Of a stretch of DNA of 64,000 bases, positions 33,840 through 55,907 are shown piece after piece. Source of the DNA: Gluconacetobacter liquefaciens (GTDB lineage Bacteria > Pseudomonadota > Alphaproteobacteria > Acetobacterales > Acetobacteraceae). The position numbers and the translations under genes are program-made. Where the stretch lies: assembly GCF_003350405.1 (NCBI RefSeq), contig NZ_QQAW01000005.1:248001-312000 (forward strand). Direction: 5' to 3'. Positions within the stretch are counted from its first letter, which is position 1; each line of letters opens with the position of its first letter. The notes beneath the pieces were generated by a model. The model worked only from the letters and a program-made list of their open reading frames with translations. It was not told the DNA's origin and ran no database searches.

Positions 33840-34147
33840 ATGAGGATTTCCCAAGGGCGAGAGCGAATGGCTGCTCTATATCGCTGGCCTGTCGGGACTG
33901 TCATGTTATAGTTTTGTTGCGGTAGTAAATAAAATTGGGGCGGAACCGTGATACATCGTGCCGCACCGTGTGGCGGCTTTGGCGGCCGTTGCCGTGTGCG
34001 CCACTGTCGCAGGTCCGCGACAGGTGTTGCGCCGGCTTGTCACGAGGGCGCGAGAGGGCGTTACATGCCTCTTCCACGCTCAATCGGCCTATGGCGATCT
34101 CATGCCCGGCAGCCTGCGTTCCGCATGGCTCGATGGGAGAGGATTGC
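33840..34147. promoter_or_regulatory. Divergent promoter region between TonB receptor operon and SDR gene
   Basis: About 310 bases. The AT-rich block at 33900-33945 is the best candidate for promoter elements. I see no convincing operator palindrome. Open frames in it lack ribosome sites. Confidence 0.4.
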
Positions 34148-34927
34148 ATGGCAATCACGGGAAAGGTCGCGCTGGTTACGGGAGCGGCCCAGGGCATCGG
34201 CCGGGGCATTGCCCTGCGGCTGGCACAGGATGGCGCCGATGTGGCGTTGGTCGATCTGAAACCCGAGCCGCTGCATGCGGTGGCGGCCGAGATCGCGGCC
34301 CTTGGGCGCCGGGCCACGACCTTTGTTGCCGATGTGGGCGACCGCGAACAGGTGCGGGCGGCGGTCGATCATGCCGCGCGGGAACTGGGCGGCTTTGACA
34401 TCATGGTCAACAACGCCGGCATCGCGCAGGTCAAGGCGCTGGCCTCGGTAATGCCCGAGGATGTGGAGCGCATTTTCCGGATCAATGTCCAGGGTGTGCT
34501 ATGGGGGATCCAGGCGGCGGCCGACCGGTTTGTCGCCAGCGGACAGAAGGGCAAGATCATCAATGCCTGTTCGATCGCCGGGCATGACGGTTTTGCGCTG
34601 CTGGGCGTCTATTCGGCGACGAAATTCGCCGTGCGCGGGCTGACCCAGGCGGCGGCGAAGGAATATGCCAGCAAGGGCATTACCGTGAACGCCTATTGCC
34701 CCGGCGTGGTGGGGACCAGCATGTGGGTCGAGATCGACCAGCTCTTCTCGGAAATCACGGGGGCGGAGAAGGGGGAGACCTTCCGCAAATATGTCGATGG
34801 CATCGCCCTGGGCCGGGCGGAGACGCCCGAGGATGTGGCGGGGCTGGTGTCGTACCTCTCCGGCCCGGATTCCGATTACATGACGGGGCAGTCGGTCCTG
34901 ATCGACGGTGGGCTGGTTTATCGCTGA
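34148..34927 (+). CDS. budC: SDR oxidoreductase, acetoin reductase / meso-2,3-butanediol dehydrogenase type
   Basis: NAD(H)-dependent short-chain dehydrogenase of 259 residues. The start ATG at 34148 has GGGAGAGG upstream. The cofactor motif [10 protein letters not shown] is at residues 11-20, [11 protein letters not shown] near 89, the catalytic Ser in [10 protein letters not shown] near 142, and YSATK near 155. The motif [15 protein letters not shown] and the [16 protein letters not shown] segment are typical of diacetyl/acetoin reductases. The reaction would be acetoin to 2,3-butanediol or diacetyl to acetoin. The symbol is by resemblance. Confidence 0.8.
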
Positions 34928-34943
34928 TCGCGTTCGGAACTGT

Positions 34944-35612
34944 TCAGGGCTGGCGGGAGAGGATGTCCTGCCAGGTTTCCTCGGTGGGGCGGCCCATCTC
35001 GAACATCGCGTCGCGCCGGATCGCGGCGTAGTCGCCGGAGCCGCCGGCGCGCAGGATGGGCTGCGCCCCGGCGGTGTCGTAACTGCCTTCGGCCAGCAGG
35101 GTGCGGCGGATATGCACCGCTACCACTTCGCCGAAGACCATCCAGCTTTCCAGATCCTCGCCCCCGACGGTGCGCAGTTGCAGCATCTGGGTCAGGCGGC
35201 ATTCGAAATGCACCGGACTGTCCGCCACCCGTGGCGGGCGGACCTGCGTGGAAGGCAGGCGGGCCAGGTTGGCGAGGTCGAATTCGCAGACATCGTGCGG
35301 GACGGCGGCGGAGCTCAGATTCATCGAACCGGCCAGGGGCAGGGTGGCGAGGTTCCACACGAATTCGCCCGTGGCCTGGATGTTGGCCACCGTGTCTTTC
35401 CAGCCGATGCTGGAAAAGCCGATGATCGGCGGCTGGTAGTTGAAGGCGTTGAAGAAGCTGTAGGGCGCGAGATTGGCCCGGCCTGCCGCGTCGATCGAGG
35501 AAATCCAGCCGATCGGGCGTGGCCCCACGATGGCGTTGAACGGGTCATGCTTCAGGCCGTGGCCGGTGGCGGGGCGGTAGGAGTGGAAGGCGTCGGACGG
35601 ATTGGATGACAT
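34944..35612 (-). CDS. Flavin reductase-like domain protein
   Basis: FMN-binding split-barrel protein of 222 residues. The pattern HDPFNAIVGPRPIGWISS near residue 22 and NLAPYSFFNAFNYQPPIIGF near 48 identifies the flavin reductase / DIM6-NTAB family. Members either reduce FMN for a partner monooxygenase or are stand-alone flavoproteins of unknown role. A cytochrome P450 gene lies 54 bp upstream on the same strand. That pairing is suggestive but not proof of a redox link. Confidence 0.82.
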   Translation of the reverse strand: MSSNPSDAFHSYRPATGHGLKHDPFNAIVGPRPIGWISSIDAAGRANLAPYSFFNAFNYQPPIIGFSSIGWKDTVANIQATGEFVWNLATLPLAGSMNLSSAAVPHDVCEFDLANLARLPSTQVRPPRVADSPVHFECRLTQMLQLRTVGGEDLESWMVFGEVVAVHIRRTLLAEGSYDTAGAQPILRAGGSGDYAAIRRDAMFEMGRPTEETWQDILSRQP

Positions 35613-35666
35613 GGCTGGCGTCCTCGACGGAAGCTGTGGAGCGTATGGCGTGGCCGGCGCGTGAGG

Positions 35667-37016
35667 TCAGCGGCGGCGCAGGCGGAAGGCGGGGGCGTGG
35701 CTGGGCCGGGTCGACAGGACCCCGACCGGCAGCACCGGCCGGTGGTCGGCGAGGGTGAGCGTGAAATCCTGGAGCAGGCGGGCCAGGACCAGCACGGCCT
35801 CGGTCATGGCCAGTTGCGCGCCGATGCAGACATGCGGCCCGGCGCCGAACGGCAGGAAGCTGAAGCGCGGGGGATCGGGGCGGTCCAGAAAACGCTGGGG
35901 GTCGAATTGCGCCGGGGCGTGCCACAGGGCGGGATTGCGGTGCAGCATCCAGAAAGGCAGCAGCACCATCGCATTGTCGGGCAGGGGGTGGCCGCACAGG
36001 TCGGTTTCGCCCACGGTTTCCCGGCCGCTCATGAAGGCGGGCGGATAGAGGCGCAGGGTTTCGCGCACCACGGCCGTCGTGATGTGCAGGGAGGGTAGCG
36101 AGGAGGCCGCGCCATCTGGCGTCAGGTCCTTGTCCCGCACTTCCTGCGCGATCTCGTTCTGCCATCGGGTGGACTGGGCCAGCAGCAGGCAGGACCAGAA
36201 CAGGACCGATGCCGTCGTTTCGTGCCCGGCCACGATCATGGTGGCGACTTCGTCGATCAGTTCGGACGTGGTGCCGCCGCCCTGGTCGCCGAAAGCCGTC
36301 TGCATGAGGTCGAACAGGTCGCGCGGGGCATCGGTGGGGGCCTGCGCGTGGCGCGCGGCGATGATCCGGCCGATCAATGCCACCCAGTGGCGGCGGAAAC
36401 GCGCGCGGCGCCAGCCCAGCAGGGTCGGCGTGCCGGGTGGCAGCAGGAAATCGGAAGGCCGGGGCGTGCCGATGCCCGTCATGAAACGGGTGACGGAGTC
36501 ACGCAAGGGCTGGTCGAACGCGCCGATCTCCAGCGAGAACATGGAAACCGCCGCGACATCCAGCGCCAGGCGCCGCATGGCTGAGAACAGGTCGACCGGG
36601 CCGCTGGTCTCCAGGTTTCGGCAGCCCCGATCGGCGCAGGCGGCGATATGTCCGGCCAGCACGGGCACCGTGCGCGGGGTGAAGGCCGGGGCCATGGCGC
36701 GGCGCTGCCGCCGCCACGTGTCGCCCTCGCTGACCAGCAGGCCGCGCCCGACGATGGGACTGAGCACGCGCTGGCCGACGCGCATGCGGCGATAATGCCC
36801 GGCATCCGACGTCAGGATCGCCTGCATGGATTCAGGGGCGGCAGCCAGCACCAACGGGCGGCCCAGTGCGCGCAGGATGACCACCGGCTGGGTGAAGCAG
36901 CGCTGTGGAAAGGCCGAATAGCCGTTGCGCCGCAGGGTCGCGAGAACGCGCAGGCCCCCGGCATGTTCCGACAGAAGAGGGGGCATCGGCGGAACGAGAG
37001 GGGATGAGTCGAGCAC
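35667..37016 (-). CDS. Cytochrome P450
   Basis: Soluble haem-thiolate monooxygenase of 449 residues. The start is a GTG at 37016 with no strong ribosome site. The I-helix oxygen-binding motif AGHETTA is near residue 262. The ExxR motif ETLRLYPP is near 316. The haem-binding loop FLPFGAGPHVCIGAQLAM is near 392, with the Cys ligand. The length and the LYPPAF region resemble the fatty-acid hydroxylase-like class, but the substrate cannot be assigned. There is no adjacent ferredoxin; the flavin reductase-like gene downstream is the only redox neighbour. Confidence 0.92.
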   Translation of the reverse strand: MLDSSPLVPPMPPLLSEHAGGLRVLATLRRNGYSAFPQRCFTQPVVILRALGRPLVLAAAPESMQAILTSDAGHYRRMRVGQRVLSPIVGRGLLVSEGDTWRRQRRAMAPAFTPRTVPVLAGHIAACADRGCRNLETSGPVDLFSAMRRLALDVAAVSMFSLEIGAFDQPLRDSVTRFMTGIGTPRPSDFLLPPGTPTLLGWRRARFRRHWVALIGRIIAARHAQAPTDAPRDLFDLMQTAFGDQGGGTTSELIDEVATMIVAGHETTASVLFWSCLLLAQSTRWQNEIAQEVRDKDLTPDGAASSLPSLHITTAVVRETLRLYPPAFMSGRETVGETDLCGHPLPDNAMVLLPFWMLHRNPALWHAPAQFDPQRFLDRPDPPRFSFLPFGAGPHVCIGAQLAMTEAVLVLARLLQDFTLTLADHRPVLPVGVLSTRPSHAPAFRLRRR

Positions 37017-37402: not shown

Positions 37403-38509
37403 GTGCGCGCCTGTGCGAGAGGCCGCTGGAACAGGCGATCTGCCGGGCCGGGGGATAGCCCGCGTTTTCTGGCCGGGATGCTGGGGGTTGGTCTGGCCCT
37501 TCTGGCCCTGCGGCCTGTTGCCGCGCAGGCGAATGCCCTGAATTTCCTTGTCTGGGAATGGGGGATCAGCCCCGATGTGGTTCGGGCCTGGACGGCCATG
37601 ACCGGCATCGCGATCAATCAGATCGTCTTTGACAATGGCGACCGGCGGGACCTGCTGATCGCGAACGTCGATGCGCCGATCGACCTGGCCGTGGTCGATA
37701 GTGCCCATGTCCAGGCATTCGGTGAGCGGGGGCTGCTGCTGGATCAGGCCGGCCTGCCCTTGCCCGAGACGTCGCGCAGCGAGGAGCGGTGGCGTGGCAT
37801 GTGCGGGCGATACGGTGTGCCGTATAGCTGGGGGAATACCGGGATCGTCTATCGCGCTGACCGCATGAAGGTAGCGCCGCAATCGTGGGGTGACCTGCTG
37901 AAGCCGGACCTCGCCCTGGCCGGGCATATCGCCATGACTGACGACCAGGAGGAATTGCTGGCTGCCGCCCTGAATTTCATGGGGCGCCCGATGAACAGCG
38001 GCGATCCGGGGGATCTGCGACGGGCCTTCGAACTGCTGCGCGCGCAGTCGCCCGCCGTGCTGACCTATGGCCTGCCCTCGACGGCACAGACGCGGCGCGA
38101 TGTCCGGGGGCAGATCTTTATCGGCCTGGGAGGGACGGGAGACCAGAAGACCCTGAACATGGCCGGCGCGGGGACGGAGACGTGGCGCTTCGTGACGCCG
38201 CGCGAGGGCGCGATGGTATGGACCGACTGCCTGGTGGTGCTCAGGCGCACGCGCAATCCGGGCATGGCGGAACGGTTCGTCGCGTTTCTGGCGCAGGCCG
38301 ACAATGCGGCGGCGAATGCCATGTTCCTGCGCCAGCCGACGACCAACCCGCATGCGGCCGCCCTGCTGCCGGCCAGGATGCGCGAGGACCCGCAGATCTA
38401 TCCGCCCGCGGATTATCCGATTCTCTATCGCGGGCCTTTCCCGACCGACAGTCTGCCGTTGCGCCGGCATATTCTCAGTGCCCTGCTGGCGATCCATGAC
38501 GCTCAGTAG
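37403..38509 (+). CDS. PotD/NspS-like periplasmic polyamine-binding protein
   Basis: Periplasmic ligand-binding protein related to spermidine/putrescine-binding PotD/PotF. I chose the GTG at 37403 (GGGGGAA just upstream), giving a signal peptide with MLGVGLALLALRPVAAQA; the ATG at 37478 is an alternative. The mature part begins ALNFLVWEWGISPDVVRAW, matching the PotD pattern. VPYSWGNTGIVYRADRM and the later AMTDDQEELLAAAL correspond to PotD's VPYIWG and LLTDD blocks. About 368 residues. No ABC permease or ATPase is near. Its end overlaps the diguanylate cyclase start by 14 bp, so it probably presents a ligand to that sensor. Confidence 0.82.
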   Translation: MRACARGRWNRRSAGPGDSPRFLAGMLGVGLALLALRPVAAQANALNFLVWEWGISPDVVRAWTAMTGIAINQIVFDNGDRRDLLIANVDAPIDLAVVDSAHVQAFGERGLLLDQAGLPLPETSRSEERWRGMCGRYGVPYSWGNTGIVYRADRMKVAPQSWGDLLKPDLALAGHIAMTDDQEELLAAALNFMGRPMNSGDPGDLRRAFELLRAQSPAVLTYGLPSTAQTRRDVRGQIFIGLGGTGDQKTLNMAGAGTETWRFVTPREGAMVWTDCLVVLRRTRNPGMAERFVAFLAQADNAAANAMFLRQPTTNPHAAALLPARMREDPQIYPPADYPILYRGPFPTDSLPLRRHILSALLAIHDAQ

Positions 38510-40133
38510 GCGAGCGCTCGCGGTTCTGTTCCCTATCGTCCTGCTGGGGCATATCCTGGCGGGCGGGGCGGCGTATCTGGGGTATCGCCATGCGCTGGTC
38601 ACGCAGAACAGGGCCAGGCTTCAGCAGAATCTGTCGCAGCTTCAGAATGCGTATGCCGACTATGCGTCGCTGGACTCGCAACTGCTGTATGTGGTGCGCA
38701 ACAGCCCGGCCTTTCTGACCTTTGTCGATGAAAGCGATGCCGAATACCGGACCAGGGTTCTGGCGATCGGTGTGCAGGACAGCCTGCAATCGCTGGTTCC
38801 CAATGACGGGACGAGCGTGTCGTGCAGCGTTTTCCAGTCGGATGGAAAGCAGATCTTCTATTTCGACAATGGCGCGGACCCGTTCCAGAGGCTGGGGACC
38901 CGCCAGTCGGCCTTTGCGCAGGCGGTGCTGAACGATGACGTGGCATCGCGTTCGGGGCTGGTGACCGAGGGAGATGGTACCACCTATCTGGCGATGGCCG
39001 CGAAGGTGCTGGCGCGCACGGGGGGCGTGGGCGTTGCGGGGCCGCAGCCGGATCAGTCGGTCGTCATGCAGGTGGCGGTGCGGCCCCGCCGGTTCGAGAC
39101 GATCCGCGACACCATGGCCAGGGAGTATGGCGCGCCGGTCGCACTGACGGATTTGCCGCCGGCATCGCACGGGGAATTATCCGCCAGTATCCGGCTGGCG
39201 GCTGGTCTTTATGCGCAGGAGACGCCATCCGTCGCCTATCTGCGTGGCCCACTGACGCGCTTTGCCGCCGTGACCGGTCTGTTCGTCATCGTGCTCAGCG
39301 TGGTGTCGGTCTCGGTGCTGATGGCGCTGGTGCGCCGCTATATCATCGTGCCGGTCGAGGAACTTGACCGGCAGGTGACGGCGATTACGGAAAATCGCCG
39401 ACAGGATATCGACGTGCCCGATATGGGGGAGGTCGGCCGGCTGGCGGCGAACGTGCGGCTGCTGCATGGCCAGTTGACGCGATCGCTGCGGCAGATCCGG
39501 CAGCTTTACGAGACGGATCTGGTGACGGGGATCGGCAACCGGATCTATTTCAACGACAAGCTCGACCAGTTCTATCAACTCAGCGCCACGACCGGCCGGC
39601 CGCTGACCATGCTGTTCATCGATCTGGACAATTTCAAGCAGGTCAATGACGTGCATGGGCACCGGACCGGCGATGCGTTGCTGGAGGCGGTGGCGTGTGC
39701 GCTGAGTGCCGCCGTCCGCGATGCGACCGAGGACGGGGCCGAGGCGATGGGGACCGTGGCGCGGCTGTCGGGAGACGAATTCACCGCGCTGATCATGGCC
39801 GATCCACGGAGCACGGTGGTCAGGGCGCTGATCGACGCCTTCCTGCTGAAGTTTCGTGGTGGCTTCCAGGTCGATGCGGCGTCTTACCCCGTTACAGCCA
39901 GCATCGGGGTCGCGACGGCGCCGGGCGATGCCGGTACGCCGACGCATCTGCTCTGGTGCGCGGACCATGCGATGTATCACGCCAAGGCCGCCGGTCGGAA
40001 CACGGTGGCCTTTTATGCCGACCTGCCGCGCGATGAAGCGGCAGGGGGCGCGCCGGAGCGGGGCGTTATGCCGGAAGAGCGCGGACGAGCAATGCGGCCA
40101 CCGCTTCCACAAGCTGCCGGTCCTGCGGTGTGA
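38496..40133 (+). CDS. Membrane diguanylate cyclase with periplasmic sensor domain
   Basis: Synthesises c-di-GMP. Of 545 residues, the first membrane segment is at 8-28 (LAVLFPIVLLGHILAGGAAYL). A periplasmic domain (30-252) follows, then the second segment (about 255-282, AVTGLFVIVLSVVSVSVLM). HAMP runs to about 335, and the GGDEF domain lies at about 350-505 (TDLVTGIGNRIYFNDKL, FIDLDNFKQVNDVHGH). The active site reads SGDEF at 425-429, a variant known to be active in some proteins. The RxxD inhibitory site is not visible. The start lies inside the end of the PotD-like gene. No EAL domain is present. Confidence 0.88.
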   Translation: MTLSRRALAVLFPIVLLGHILAGGAAYLGYRHALVTQNRARLQQNLSQLQNAYADYASLDSQLLYVVRNSPAFLTFVDESDAEYRTRVLAIGVQDSLQSLVPNDGTSVSCSVFQSDGKQIFYFDNGADPFQRLGTRQSAFAQAVLNDDVASRSGLVTEGDGTTYLAMAAKVLARTGGVGVAGPQPDQSVVMQVAVRPRRFETIRDTMAREYGAPVALTDLPPASHGELSASIRLAAGLYAQETPSVAYLRGPLTRFAAVTGLFVIVLSVVSVSVLMALVRRYIIVPVEELDRQVTAITENRRQDIDVPDMGEVGRLAANVRLLHGQLTRSLRQIRQLYETDLVTGIGNRIYFNDKLDQFYQLSATTGRPLTMLFIDLDNFKQVNDVHGHRTGDALLEAVACALSAAVRDATEDGAEAMGTVARLSGDEFTALIMADPRSTVVRALIDAFLLKFRGGFQVDAASYPVTASIGVATAPGDAGTPTHLLWCADHAMYHAKAAGRNTVAFYADLPRDEAAGGAPERGVMPEERGRAMRPPLPQAAGPAV

Positions 40134-40548
40134 AGCGGTCGGGGATCGGGCTGTCGATATCCAGCACGCCGATCAGCCGGTCACCGGCGAGCAGCGGGAC
40201 CACGATTTCCGAGGCGGAGGCGGCGTCGCAGGCGATGTGGCCGGGAAAGGCGTGGACGTCTGCCACCACGATGGTCTCGCGGCTGGTCGCGGCGGCGCCG
40301 CATACCCCCTTGCCCAGCGGGATGCGGGTGCAGGCGACCCGGCCCTGGAATGGCCCGAGAACAAGCTGGTCGTCGCGCAGGAAATAGAAGCCGGCCCAGT
40401 TGATGTGGGGCAGGGCCTCGAACAGCAGGGCGGCGACATTCGCGGCATTGGCGATCAGGTCGGGTTCGCCGGCCAGGATGGCCTCGACACTGCCCAGCAG
40501 GTCGTCCGGCGTGACACGTTGATCGGCAGGCTGGTGGCTCATGGACAT
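40066..40548 (-). CDS. msrC: Free methionine-(R)-sulfoxide reductase (GAF domain)
   Basis: Reduces free L-methionine-(R)-sulfoxide. It is a single GAF-domain protein of 160 residues. The three catalytic-type cysteines are present with the known spacing: Cys in VACTRIPLG, Cys ten residues later in KGVCGAAA, and Cys in GHIACDAAS. SEIVVPLL and IGVLDIDSP are family signatures. Its last 68 bp overlap the 3' end of the convergent diguanylate cyclase gene. Confidence 0.9.
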   Translation of the reverse strand: MSMSHQPADQRVTPDDLLGSVEAILAGEPDLIANAANVAALLFEALPHINWAGFYFLRDDQLVLGPFQGRVACTRIPLGKGVCGAAATSRETIVVADVHAFPGHIACDAASASEIVVPLLAGDRLIGVLDIDSPIPDRFTPQDRQLVEAVAALLVRALPA

Positions 40549-42732: not shown

Positions 42733-44565
42733 GTGCGATCGCCCGGTATTAAAGGATCGTTGAGTATCGTTCTGTTTTTTATCGCTCTTTCCTGTATCGT
42801 TTCGGGATTGTTTTCGATACGGGGGCTGACTTACGTCAACGAACGGGTCGAGGACATCACCAACCGGTCGCTGGCCAGCATCAAGGCGCTCTCGACCCTT
42901 CGTACAGAGATCCAGAATTTCCGGGGTATCGAGATCCGGCAGCTTACTGCGGCGTCGCAGGATGATTTCAAGAAGCTTGCCGGCGAAAGCGACGCGGCAT
43001 CCGACAGGATCGCCCATGCTATCGACCGGTATGTGCCGTTTATCACGACCGATCGGGAGCAGGCGCTGTTCCATAATATTCAGGAGCAGTGGTATCAGTA
43101 CAAAGACCTGCATGACGATACGTTCAAGGACTGGTTGGTTTCCCAGGACCATGCCCATGCCGTGGTGACGGCCGGCCAGGAGCTGGTTGATGCCGAGGAA
43201 ACGGTATCGGAGACCCTGACCTCGTTCCTTGATGGCAGCATCAGGGATGCGGCTTCCTATGGTGTTGAGTCGGAGGGTGTTTACAGGACGACGGTTCGTT
43301 GGGTTTATGCGGCCTATGCCGTGCTGTTTGTCGTGATGCTGGCGGCTATTCTGGTGGTTCTGTACAAGATCCTGCGGCCGCTTCAGCGGATCAATGCTTC
43401 CATTACCCGGTTGGCGGCGGGAGAGACGGATCTGGTCTTTCCCATGGCCCGCCGGAGGGACGAGATCGGTGCGATTTCCCGTTCGCTTGAGGTCTTTCGT
43501 GTTGCGGCCATCGCGAAGCAGGCGCTGGAGCGGGATGCGGAGGGCCAGCGCCGCCGCGCGGAGGCCGAGCGCGTGGCCATTCAGGAGCAGGCCGAAGCCG
43601 AGGCGCGGGAACGGTTGCTTCAGGCGACCAGCGCGTTGGCCGACGGGCTGAGGCGGATGGCGGGCGGCGACCTTTCCTTTCAGATCGTCACGCCGTTTTC
43701 GGCGGAATTCGAATCCCTGCGTCGCGATTTCAACCGGTCGCTGGCGCAGCTTGGCGCGGCGTTCGGCCATATGTCGGGCGCCGTTCGCGTGATCAGCGAC
43801 GGCACGCATGAGCTGGCGGGCGGCGCGGAGACGCTGGCACGGCGGACCGAGCACCAGGCTGCCGCGCTGGAAGAGACGAATACGGCTGTGGCAGGGATTG
43901 CCCGGAGCGTGGCGGATACGGCGGAACGATCGGAGACGGCCCGCGAGATCGGGGCGCGGGCGCGCCGGTCGGCCGCGACGTCGAGCACCATTACGCTGGA
44001 GACCGAAGAGGCGATGCGGCGGATCGAGCAGGGATCGGAGAAGATTGCCGCGATCGTCGACATGATCGACGGGATTGCCTTCCAGACCAATATCCTGGCG
44101 CTGAATGCCAGCGTCGAGGCGGCCAGGGCGGGGGAGGCCGGCAGGGGCTTTACCGTGGTGGCCAGCGAAGTGCGCTTGCTGGCGCAGAAAAGCGCCGATG
44201 CCGCGCGGGATGTGCGCGGCGTGATCCGCGCGACTGCCGCCGACGTGAAGGAAGGGTCCAGCCGGGTCAAGGATTGTAGCGGAACGCTGCGGACGATTTC
44301 CGATTTCATCGGCCAGATGGGGCAGCATCTGGATGCCATCGCCGTAGCGGCGAAGGAGCAGTCATCGAGCCTGTCGGAAATCAATGCCGCCATGGGGGCG
44401 CTGGACCAGACAACCCAGCAGAATACGAATGTTGCCGACACATTCAACGGAACCTCCAGGCAGTTGGCCGCCGAAGGGCGCAGGCTCAGCGGACTGGTGG
44501 AAAAATTCCGGCTGCCGGGGGAAAGTGAGCATGCGTCTCGGCTGGTCGCCATAAGCGGGCGTTAG
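42733..44565 (+). CDS. Methyl-accepting chemotaxis protein
   Basis: Transmembrane chemoreceptor of 610 residues beginning at a GTG (42733) with AAAGGA upstream. First membrane segment at 8-29, a helical-bundle periplasmic sensor (30-190), second segment at about 193-214 (AAYAVLFVVMLAAILVVLY), and HAMP to about 265. A linker follows and then the signalling hairpin, whose tip IDGIAFQTNILALNASVEAARAGE is near residue 450 (given here only as the conserved landmark around 44070-44140). No che genes are adjacent. It may couple to a chemotaxis array encoded elsewhere. Confidence 0.92.
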   Translation: MRSPGIKGSLSIVLFFIALSCIVSGLFSIRGLTYVNERVEDITNRSLASIKALSTLRTEIQNFRGIEIRQLTAASQDDFKKLAGESDAASDRIAHAIDRYVPFITTDREQALFHNIQEQWYQYKDLHDDTFKDWLVSQDHAHAVVTAGQELVDAEETVSETLTSFLDGSIRDAASYGVESEGVYRTTVRWVYAAYAVLFVVMLAAILVVLYKILRPLQRINASITRLAAGETDLVFPMARRRDEIGAISRSLEVFRVAAIAKQALERDAEGQRRRAEAERVAIQEQAEAEARERLLQATSALADGLRRMAGGDLSFQIVTPFSAEFESLRRDFNRSLAQLGAAFGHMSGAVRVISDGTHELAGGAETLARRTEHQAAALEETNTAVAGIARSVADTAERSETAREIGARARRSAATSSTITLETEEAMRRIEQGSEKIAAIVDMIDGIAFQTNILALNASVEAARAGEAGRGFTVVASEVRLLAQKSADAARDVRGVIRATAADVKEGSSRVKDCSGTLRTISDFIGQMGQHLDAIAVAAKEQSSSLSEINAAMGALDQTTQQNTNVADTFNGTSRQLAAEGRRLSGLVEKFRLPGESEHASRLVAISGR

Positions 44566-54284: not shown

Positions 54285-55907
54285 TCAGGCATGCAGGCCG
54301 GGTGCCTCGCGGCCGGTGCGGGCGACATATTCGGTATAGCCGCCATCATAACGGTGGAGCCCTTCCGGTGTCAGTTCCAGGACGCGGTTGGACAGGGCGG
54401 CGAGGAAATGCCGGTCGTGGGAGACGAACAGCATCGTGCCGTCATAATCGGCCAGGGCGGTGATCAGCATTTCCTTGGTCGCGATGTCGAGATGGTTGGT
54501 CGGTTCGTCGAGCACCAGGAAGTTCGGCGGGTCGTACAGCATCAGGGCCAGGACCAGCCGGGCCTTCTCGCCGCCGGAGAGCACGCGGCAGACCTTGTCG
54601 ATATCGTCGCCGGAGAAGCCGAAGCCACCGGCCAGTGCCCGGAGCGAGCCCTGGGGGGCGAGGGGGAAGGCGTCGTTCAGGGTTTCGAAGATGGTCCGGC
54701 TGCCGTCGAGCAGATCCATGGCGTGCTGGGCGAAATAGCCCATCTTGACGCTGCCGCCGAGCGTGACCGTGCCGGCATCGGGCTCGGTAGTGCCGGTTAC
54801 CAGTTTCAGCAGGGTGGATTTACCGGCGCCGTTGACGCCGAGCACGCAGCAGCGTTCCTGCCGGCGGATCAGCAGGTCGAGATCCTTGTAGATCACCCGG
54901 CTGCCGTATGATTTGTCCACGCCGCGCAGATTGACGACCGCGTCGCCCGAGCGTGGGGCCTGCGGAAAGGTGAAGGAGAGGGTCTGGCGGCGCTTGGGGG
55001 GCTCGACCCGGTCGATCTTGTCGAGTTTCTTCACCCGGCTTTGCACCTGCGCGGCGTGGGAGGCGCGGGCCTTGAAGCGTTCGATGAAGGCGACTTCCTT
55101 TGCCAGCATGGCCTGCTGGCGGTCGAACTGCGCCTGCTGCTGCTTTTCGTTCATGGCGCGCTGCTGCTCGTAGAACTCGTAATCGCCCGAGAAGCTGGTC
55201 AGCGTGCCGCCGTCGATCTCGATCACCTTGTTGATGATCCTGTTCATGAAGGCGCGGTCATGCGAGGTCATCAGCAGGGCGCCGTCGTAACCGGCGAGGA
55301 ACTGCTCCAGCCAGATCAGGCTTTCCAGGTCGAGATGGTTGCTGGGTTCGTCGAGCAGCATCACGTCCGGCTTCATCAGCAGGATGCGGGCCAGAGCCAC
55401 GCGCATCTTCCACCCGCCCGACAGGCGGCCCACGTCGCCGTCCATCATCTCCTGGCTGAAGCCCAGTCCGTGCAGGACTTCGCGCGCGCGGCCTTCCAGC
55501 GCGTAGCCGCCCAGTTCCTCGAAGCGGGCCTGGACCTCGCCGAACCGTTCGAGGATGGCATCCAGTTCGTCGAACCGCTCCGGGTCGGCCATCGCGGTTT
55601 CCAGTTCGGCCAGTTCCGCCCCGATCTCGGCCACCGGGCCGGCCCCGTTCATCACCTCGGCGACCGCGCTGCGGCCGGACATCTCGCCCACATCCTGGTT
55701 GAAGAAGCCGACCGAAACGCCGCGGTCGGTCAGGACCTGGCCTTCATCGGGTTCTTCCTGGCCGGTGATCAGGCGGAACAGCGTCGTCTTGCCCGCGCCG
55801 TTCGGCCCGACCAGCCCGATCTTCTCGCCTTTTTGCAGCGCCGCCGAAGCCTCGATGAAGATGACGCGATGGCCGTTATGCTTGCTGATAGTGTCGAGAC
55901 GGATCAT
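54285..55907 (-). CDS. ABC-F family ATPase (YbiT/Uup-like)
   Basis: A soluble protein with two ABC ATPase domains and no membrane segments; ABC-F proteins act on the ribosome. Domain 1: Walker A GPNGAGKTT near residue 37, signature LSGGWKMR near 164, Walker B MLLDEPSNHLD near 183. A long charged linker (QQRAMNEKQQQAQFDRQQAMLAKE region, near 255) is the P-site tRNA-interaction motif. Domain 2: GVNGAGKST near 352, LSGGEKARL near 447, VLDEPTNHLD near 467. 540 residues, within the family range. Confidence 0.92.
   Translation of the reverse strand: MIRLDTISKHNGHRVIFIEASAALQKGEKIGLVGPNGAGKTTLFRLITGQEEPDEGQVLTDRGVSVGFFNQDVGEMSGRSAVAEVMNGAGPVAEIGAELAELETAMADPERFDELDAILERFGEVQARFEELGGYALEGRAREVLHGLGFSQEMMDGDVGRLSGGWKMRVALARILLMKPDVMLLDEPSNHLDLESLIWLEQFLAGYDGALLMTSHDRAFMNRIINKVIEIDGGTLTSFSGDYEFYEQQRAMNEKQQQAQFDRQQAMLAKEVAFIERFKARASHAAQVQSRVKKLDKIDRVEPPKRRQTLSFTFPQAPRSGDAVVNLRGVDKSYGSRVIYKDLDLLIRRQERCCVLGVNGAGKSTLLKLVTGTTEPDAGTVTLGGSVKMGYFAQHAMDLLDGSRTIFETLNDAFPLAPQGSLRALAGGFGFSGDDIDKVCRVLSGGEKARLVLALMLYDPPNFLVLDEPTNHLDIATKEMLITALADYDGTMLFVSHDRHFLAALSNRVLELTPEGLHRYDGGYTEYVARTGREAPGLHA

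Follow-up and report, generated by a model that had tools for sequence, protein, structure and literature searches.

The closest described counterparts of the locus examined here are the NspS-MbaA systems. In Vibrio cholerae, the gene for the PotD-like protein NspS lies beside, and overlaps, the gene for the receptor MbaA, which has two transmembrane segments and an SGDEF motif (PMC8079147, PMC8967002), and docking of NspS has been proposed to raise the synthesis of cyclic diguanosine monophosphate (c-di-GMP) by MbaA and to lower its degradation, with both receptor domains being of importance (PMC8079147). NspS-MbaA has been reported from 222 of 16,076 proteobacterial genomes, among which Gluconacetobacter diazotrophicus PAL5 is named with an overlap of 13 bp (PMC9993111). 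Here we describe a pair of this kind in Gluconacetobacter liquefaciens, located in a 64,000-nucleotide stretch of contig NZ_QQAW01000005.1 (positions 248,001 to 312,000; hereafter the window) and consisting of a binding-protein gene followed by the gene for a membrane diguanylate cyclase that has no EAL domain. From sequence comparison, the pair is likely to be a derived NspS-MbaA-type receptor whose output is confined to synthesis. The homology itself is partly in print, as it is already reported for G. diazotrophicus PAL5 (PMC9993111); added here are a changed ligand pocket and the finding that the degrading half is missing across the genus.

The Gluconacetobacter pair resembles that of V. 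cholerae (PMC8079147, PMC8967002) in having a PotD-like protein beside a two-transmembrane SGDEF receptor, overlapping genes, and six of the eight predicted ligand contacts. It differs in the absence of EAL/EVL, in changes at the positions of NspS F131 and Y233, and in its sensor, for which identity to Vibrio is weak (20%, V. campbellii). The closest named systems are those of Sinorhizobium meliloti and relatives (PMC9993111), with approximately 35-38% identity in the binding protein and approximately 30% in the sensor half, and with SGDEF and no RxxD site in both. S. meliloti MbaA, in contrast, is a 790-aa protein with EAL, its gene overlap is 4 nt rather than 14, and the two pocket positions that differ in Gluconacetobacter are occupied by F and Y; the two S. 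meliloti genes are annotated as encoding a spermidine/putrescine binding protein and then an EAL-domain protein. The ArtI-STM1987 system of Salmonella, likened here by its description (PMC8846402), also uses a periplasmic binding protein as input to a membrane diguanylate cyclase, but its ligand is arginine and its sensor is of the dCACHE type. Escherichia coli PotD and PotF belong to the same family by sequence and have the W and D pocket residues in common with the binding protein, but they are parts of ATP-binding cassette (ABC) importers, are without the cysteine pair discussed below, and fall outside the NspS clade.

A first-pass annotation of this DNA had described a PotD-like binding protein overlapping the start of a diguanylate cyclase, and both open reading frames (ORFs) were found as described (Table 1). 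Upstream of position 37403 the binding-protein ORF is already open; it ends with the stop codon TAG at 38507-38509, and the ATG of the cyclase at 38496 is located inside the 3' end of the binding-protein gene. At the position equivalent to 37403, in a VRAC/VRAG stretch, several relatives also have a GTG, so this codon is a plausible start, not a proved one. The nearest named record is that of G. dulcium LMG 1728, with a binding protein that is 93% identical. The resulting 14-nt overlap is constant in all 12 Gluconacetobacter genomes with the pair, and a possible 14-nt overlap with a binding-protein frame was present in 10/10 loci fetched from the bacterial family of genome G392; the junction is therefore shared beyond Gluconacetobacter. 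The overlap counts in PMC9993111 run one lower than ours (3 versus 4 for S. meliloti; 16 versus 17 for Vibrio, counted here in the Vibrio-like loci L063 and L064), and the 13 bp given for PAL5 thus equal the 14 nt found here. The Gluconacetobacter genome G012 has one binding-protein match, a 14-nt overlap, and a partner frame of 525 aa without EAL. Judging from those published details of the PAL5 pair that were compared (PMC9993111), that pair is very likely an orthologue and its MbaA the EAL-less protein of G012.

The binding protein matched the Pfam family SBP_bac_8, and its best sequence matches in the PDB are polyamine-binding proteins (top E = 3.9e-27). Scores of 81 bits against the PotD model (cut-off 582) and 76 bits against the PotF model (cut-off 636) missed both equivalog cut-offs. 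A tree of 34 binding proteins, flagged for long rows and for five rows of unusual composition, separated eight Gluconacetobacter and eight NspS rows from 18 others with support of 100/100. These 18 comprise PotD, PotF, and the proteins of 16 loci (L017 and L020 were left out), and the label was given on the basis of no match to the sensor half of the cyclase in the fetched stretch, not on the basis of ABC neighbours. NspS-type proteins additionally carry two cysteines (Table 1). As the non-genus NspS rows, except that of L064, were selected by the WxDC motif (all 17 of the given loci yielded a row and none was lost), the second cysteine was partly chosen for; because the other binding proteins L014 and L029 share the WxDC cysteine, NspS is marked only by the first cysteine or by the pair. 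Of 72,556 plasmid records, 299 had a match to the binding protein. The six best matches (37-38% identity, 201-225 bits) each lie directly beside a sensor match, and the next nine among the best 15 reached at most 107 bits.

The 330-residue sensor half of the cyclase, searched against the same plasmid records, matched seven (five from Sinorhizobium, one from Shinella, and one from V. campbellii). The six matches from Sinorhizobium and Shinella extend over all 330 residues (29-31% identity, E = 5e-32 to 1e-33) and come from the same six records that head the binding-protein search; the V. campbellii match is weak (E = 7e-6). In a tree of 28 GGDEF domains, from which the own-genome loci L086-L088 (motif filter) and L089 (the second piece of the L088 frame) were omitted and in which L083 is the pair's own copy, five Gluconacetobacter rows joined eight MbaA rows (98/99), apart from 15 GGDEF domains of the own genome. 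Fusion of a foreign GGDEF domain to an MbaA sensor was considered and rejected, as this tree puts the domain with MbaA. Taken together, the sensor matches and the GGDEF tree therefore indicate that the cyclase is MbaA-related in both halves and is neither a chance neighbour nor a fusion. The comparison with NspS-MbaA that had been drawn from design likeness was thus right and can be put more strongly, since both proteins are homologues by sequence matches and trees.

Hydropathy was used in place of signal-peptide and membrane-topology prediction. The cyclase has two hydrophobic, presumably membrane-spanning, segments near residues 3-29 and 251-287, with the sensor domain between them and the SGDEF motif further downstream, which agrees with the two-transmembrane protein with a periplasmic domain and SGDEF that had been described. 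For the HAMP domain in that description, the match was weak and below the cut-off (Table 1). HAMP is equally weak in Shinella MbaA (0.1), and the match in S. meliloti MbaA (0.13) was obtained with a 330-aa fragment only and not with the full protein. The conserved GGDEF positions are retained in the alignment, and the four residues at the positions of the RxxD inhibition site read EAMG; we take the location of this site and the catalytic roles of the conserved positions to be as in PleD.

The absence of an EAL domain, also part of the first-pass annotation, was confirmed in three ways: Pfam gave no EAL match in the cyclase, the frames in 12/12 Gluconacetobacter genomes end after the GGDEF domain, and tblastn found no EAL remnant in the window and six relatives (best E = 0.12). 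Downstream of the GGDEF domain the tail varies in length and sequence within the genus, and the motif is SGDEF in nine and AGDEF in three of the 12 cyclases. Of 14 Gluconacetobacter genomes searched, the own one included, 12 encode both the binding protein and the sensor. These are not 12 independent cases, as the cyclases of G004 and G012 are identical over 522/522 shared residues; the two genomes without the pair are G011 (one contig) and G013 (87% complete, 1310 contigs). The sensor was found in none of 86 further genomes (46 of the family and 40 of the class). In a sample of the phylum, 13 of 398 genomes had a sensor match: the own genome, 11 genomes with frames of 776-810 aa, and one with a weak match that was not counted (G256; E = 4.6e-6, residues 198-327 only, frame of 563 aa), whose fetched locus contained no GGDEF-bearing frame longer than 350 aa. 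In the bacterial family of G392, matches were present in 49 of 298 genomes, with frames of 776-801 aa in all 49, the presence of EAL being judged by length for 49/49 and by motif in the 10 fetched loci. With two genomes common to both searches, this gives 58 non-Gluconacetobacter genomes with EAL-sized MbaA frames. An EAL-type motif was read in the same frame as GDEF in all 21 fetched non-Gluconacetobacter loci.

The presence of EAL in every other receptor read, rather than a rooted tree, suggests that the domain was lost in Gluconacetobacter and not that it was never gained. In the GGDEF tree, the eight EAL-bearing MbaA rows form one group with low support (71/33), and the Gluconacetobacter branch may consequently lie either beside or inside that group. 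No description of an EAL-less MbaA was found in the titles and abstracts of the open-licence literature searched, and the main text of PMC9993111, searched by term, contained no remark on a missing EAL in PAL5. Among the 11 phylum loci, six have a binding-protein frame overlapping the receptor gene. A full NspS match was not found in the fetched stretch of four others (L061, L062, L065, and L066) or of the V. campbellii locus L055, and these five are unpaired MbaA-like GGDEF-EAL receptors. In L060, the NspS-like match is apart from the receptor gene: near an MbaA-like receptor, the interval L060:2474-3725 contains an NspS-like match and, separately, a short match to the NspS C-terminus, a pattern that would fit two binding-protein genes, or a fragment of such a gene, upstream.

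Eight residues of V. cholerae NspS have been predicted by homology modelling to contact norspermidine (PMC9993111). The contact positions were mapped by spacing from W41 in the Vibrio-like NspS of L064, in which the eight contact positions and two mutant positions (L89 and S216) fall on the published letters. The polyamine-contact residues to which the first-pass annotation had drawn attention are in part present: at the positions from the published homology model, six of the eight are kept in the binding protein and two are changed (Table 1), including the otherwise aromatic Y233 position. The latter is Y in 16 and F in two of 18 NspS proteins encoded beside an EAL-bearing MbaA, and W in E. 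coli PotD and PotF. The pocket carboxylates are kept in 12/12 genus rows. By alignment, four carboxylates and two tryptophans remain. A predicted charge-binding set is thus preserved, and it is the lineage without EAL that has also lost an aromatic wall. The most divergent members of the genus (L046, L047, and L048) have AGDEF together with I at the F131 position and N at the Y233 position, which suggests a second sub-type within the genus.

Table 1. Features of the binding protein-cyclase pair, in window coordinates
Feature	Position	Strand	Details
NspS-like (PotD-family) periplasmic binding protein	37403..38509	+	368 aa counted from GTG; SBP_bac_8, E 8.8e-22; NspS clade 100/100
Probable signal-peptide core, residues ~22-42	37466..37528	+	hydropathy only, maximum at residue 22
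W51 = NspS W41, kept	37553..37555	+	alignment
D80 = NspS D70, kept	37640..37642	+	E in 3/12 genus rows
D99 = NspS D90, kept	37697..37699	+	position variable outside genus
C134, first cysteine of NspS-type pair	37802..37804	+	30/30 NspS-type rows; 0/18 other binding proteins
S142 at NspS F131, changed	37826..37828	+	S 9/12, I 3/12 genus rows; F, L or V elsewhere
G244 at NspS Y233, changed	38132..38134	+	G/A/N 12/12 genus rows; Y/F 18/18 others
D247 = NspS D236, kept	38141..38143	+	alignment
W273 and D275 = NspS W261 and D263, kept	38219..38227	+	alignment
C276, second cysteine of NspS-type pair	38228..38230	+	30/30 NspS-type rows; WxDC also in 2/18 others (L014, L029)
Overlap of both genes, 14 nt, candidate translational coupling	38496..38509	+	same in 12/12 carrier genus genomes
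MbaA-type membrane diguanylate cyclase without EAL	38496..40133	+	545 aa; Pfam profiles, sensor-half match to S. meliloti MbaA
Periplasmic sensor domain, ~residues 29-250	38580..39245	+	between two hydrophobic segments; S. meliloti MbaA match
HAMP-like linker, residues 278-327	39327..39476	+	below cut-off, E 0.33
GGDEF domain, residues 340-502	39513..40001	+	E 7.9e-33; clusters with MbaA GGDEFs
SGDEF motif, residues 425-429	39768-39782	+	within GGDEF domain

The genomic context of the pair was also examined. Upstream, at 34133-37016, a short-chain dehydrogenase, a flavin reductase-like protein, and a cytochrome P450 are encoded, and the cytochrome P450 is retained next to the pair in L097 as well as in five of six named relatives. 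A GAF-domain gene on the minus strand (40066-40548) was found beside the pair in 9/10 Gluconacetobacter regions, not in L098. Approximately 2.6 kb downstream, at 42733-44565 (+), is the gene for a methyl-accepting chemotaxis protein that combines HAMP with a sensor of the four-helix-bundle type, also found in six named relatives.

As a derived NspS-MbaA-type receptor, the pair would most likely respond to a polyamine or another cationic ligand and, because the degrading half is missing, could probably only turn c-di-GMP production up or down. The nearest described likeness to such a natural EAL-less protein is a phosphodiesterase-dead V. cholerae MbaA, with which norspermidine still raised c-di-GMP, to below the wild-type level (PMC8079147). 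Several points weigh against this interpretation. When the cytoplasmic part of V. cholerae MbaA was isolated, it showed no c-di-GMP synthesis in vitro (PMC8079147). The changes at the Y233 and F131 positions may indicate another ligand. AlphaFold models were poor, with a mean predicted local distance difference test score of 35.4 for the binding protein and 38.8 for the sensor domain, each made with seven close homologues. Finally, the unpaired loci and L060 imply that pairing with NspS is not obligatory in the wider family.

Whether the ligand has changed is more evenly balanced. The first-pass annotation had taken the input to be a polyamine, and it is about as likely as not that the same receptor binds an ordinary one (putrescine, spermidine, or homospermidine), with the pocket changes only tuning its affinity. 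The four carboxylate positions and both tryptophans are kept, the nearest solved structures are of polyamine-binding proteins, and spermidine synthesis and secretion genes have been described in G. diazotrophicus PAL5 (PMC2765452), but the aromatic Y233 position, kept in 18/18 other NspS and occupied by W in PotD and PotF, is lost in 12/12 Gluconacetobacter rows. A more far-reaching proposal, which we put forward tentatively and rate as distinctly less probable, is that the receptor has been rebuilt at both ends in one genus, through loss of the phosphodiesterase half and opening of the pocket; it would then be a one-way synthase sensor that escapes product inhibition at the usual site, responding to a ligand other than the Vibrio polyamines, perhaps a bulkier or plant-derived amine, and feeding cellulose synthesis.

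An unlinked ABC importer as the main partner of the binding protein, with the cyclase merely adjacent, is very improbable. The protein is a homologue of PotD and PotF, and 27 importer-type permeases over the cut-off are encoded elsewhere in the genome. Yet it belongs to the NspS clade, apart from the 18 other binding proteins, and is paired with the cyclase in 12/12 carriers. No ABC permease or ATPase had been seen nearby in the first-pass annotation; for the permease this extends to the whole 64-kb window, where no match to the importer-type family PF00528 was found, and for the ATPase it stands in the neighbourhood but not in the window as a whole, as an ORF encoding two ABC ATPase domains occurs at approximately 54285-55907, about 14 kb from the pair. 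The single TOBE_2 (PotA-like) ATPase match in the genome is directly adjacent to the gene for another binding protein, an SBP_bac_8 protein of its own (L052:3590-5834). Since no PF00528 permease was found on the contig of this ATPase, that locus may itself be a divergent or incomplete importer. Least probable of all is that the NspS-MbaA system is decaying and the pair an inactive remnant in which domain loss has begun: the EAL domain is gone and the tail after the GGDEF domain is variable, but open frames, cyclase motif, and overlap are kept genus-wide down to 52-60% cyclase identity, as are the pocket carboxylates (12/12).

For the derived receptor with synthesis-only output, we infer the following course of signalling. 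The binding protein would take up a cationic ligand in the periplasm, either a polyamine or a related amine of different shape, and the ligand-bound protein would dock on the sensor domain, altering cyclase activity via the second membrane helix and the HAMP-like linker. Whereas V. cholerae MbaA flips between synthesis and destruction of c-di-GMP, the Gluconacetobacter version would tune synthesis only, with degradation left to other EAL proteins; in the absence of an RxxD site, no product inhibition at that site would be expected. The genome has 20 GGDEF matches in total (two being pieces of one frame) and nine EAL matches. A search for c-di-GMP receptors, limited to PilZ, gave a single match in the genome, in a 1545-aa BcsAB-like fusion protein whose first half scored 811 bits against CelA, the catalytic subunit of cellulose synthase (cut-off 699), and whose second half matched BcsB below the cut-offs. 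Cellulose synthase is thus a plausible target of the receptor output, and the input to pellicle formation suggested in the first-pass annotation would be possible.

The SGDEF domain of MbaA had been held to be inert, and in vitro the cytoplasmic part acted as a phosphodiesterase only (PMC8079147). A natural EAL-less relative of MbaA would offer a direct way to ask whether docking of a binding protein controls c-di-GMP synthesis, and the change of the pocket in the same lineage as the loss of EAL would make the Gluconacetobacter pair a test case for ligand change in such receptors. If its output reaches cellulose synthase, the receptor could matter for cellulose-making acetic acid bacteria.

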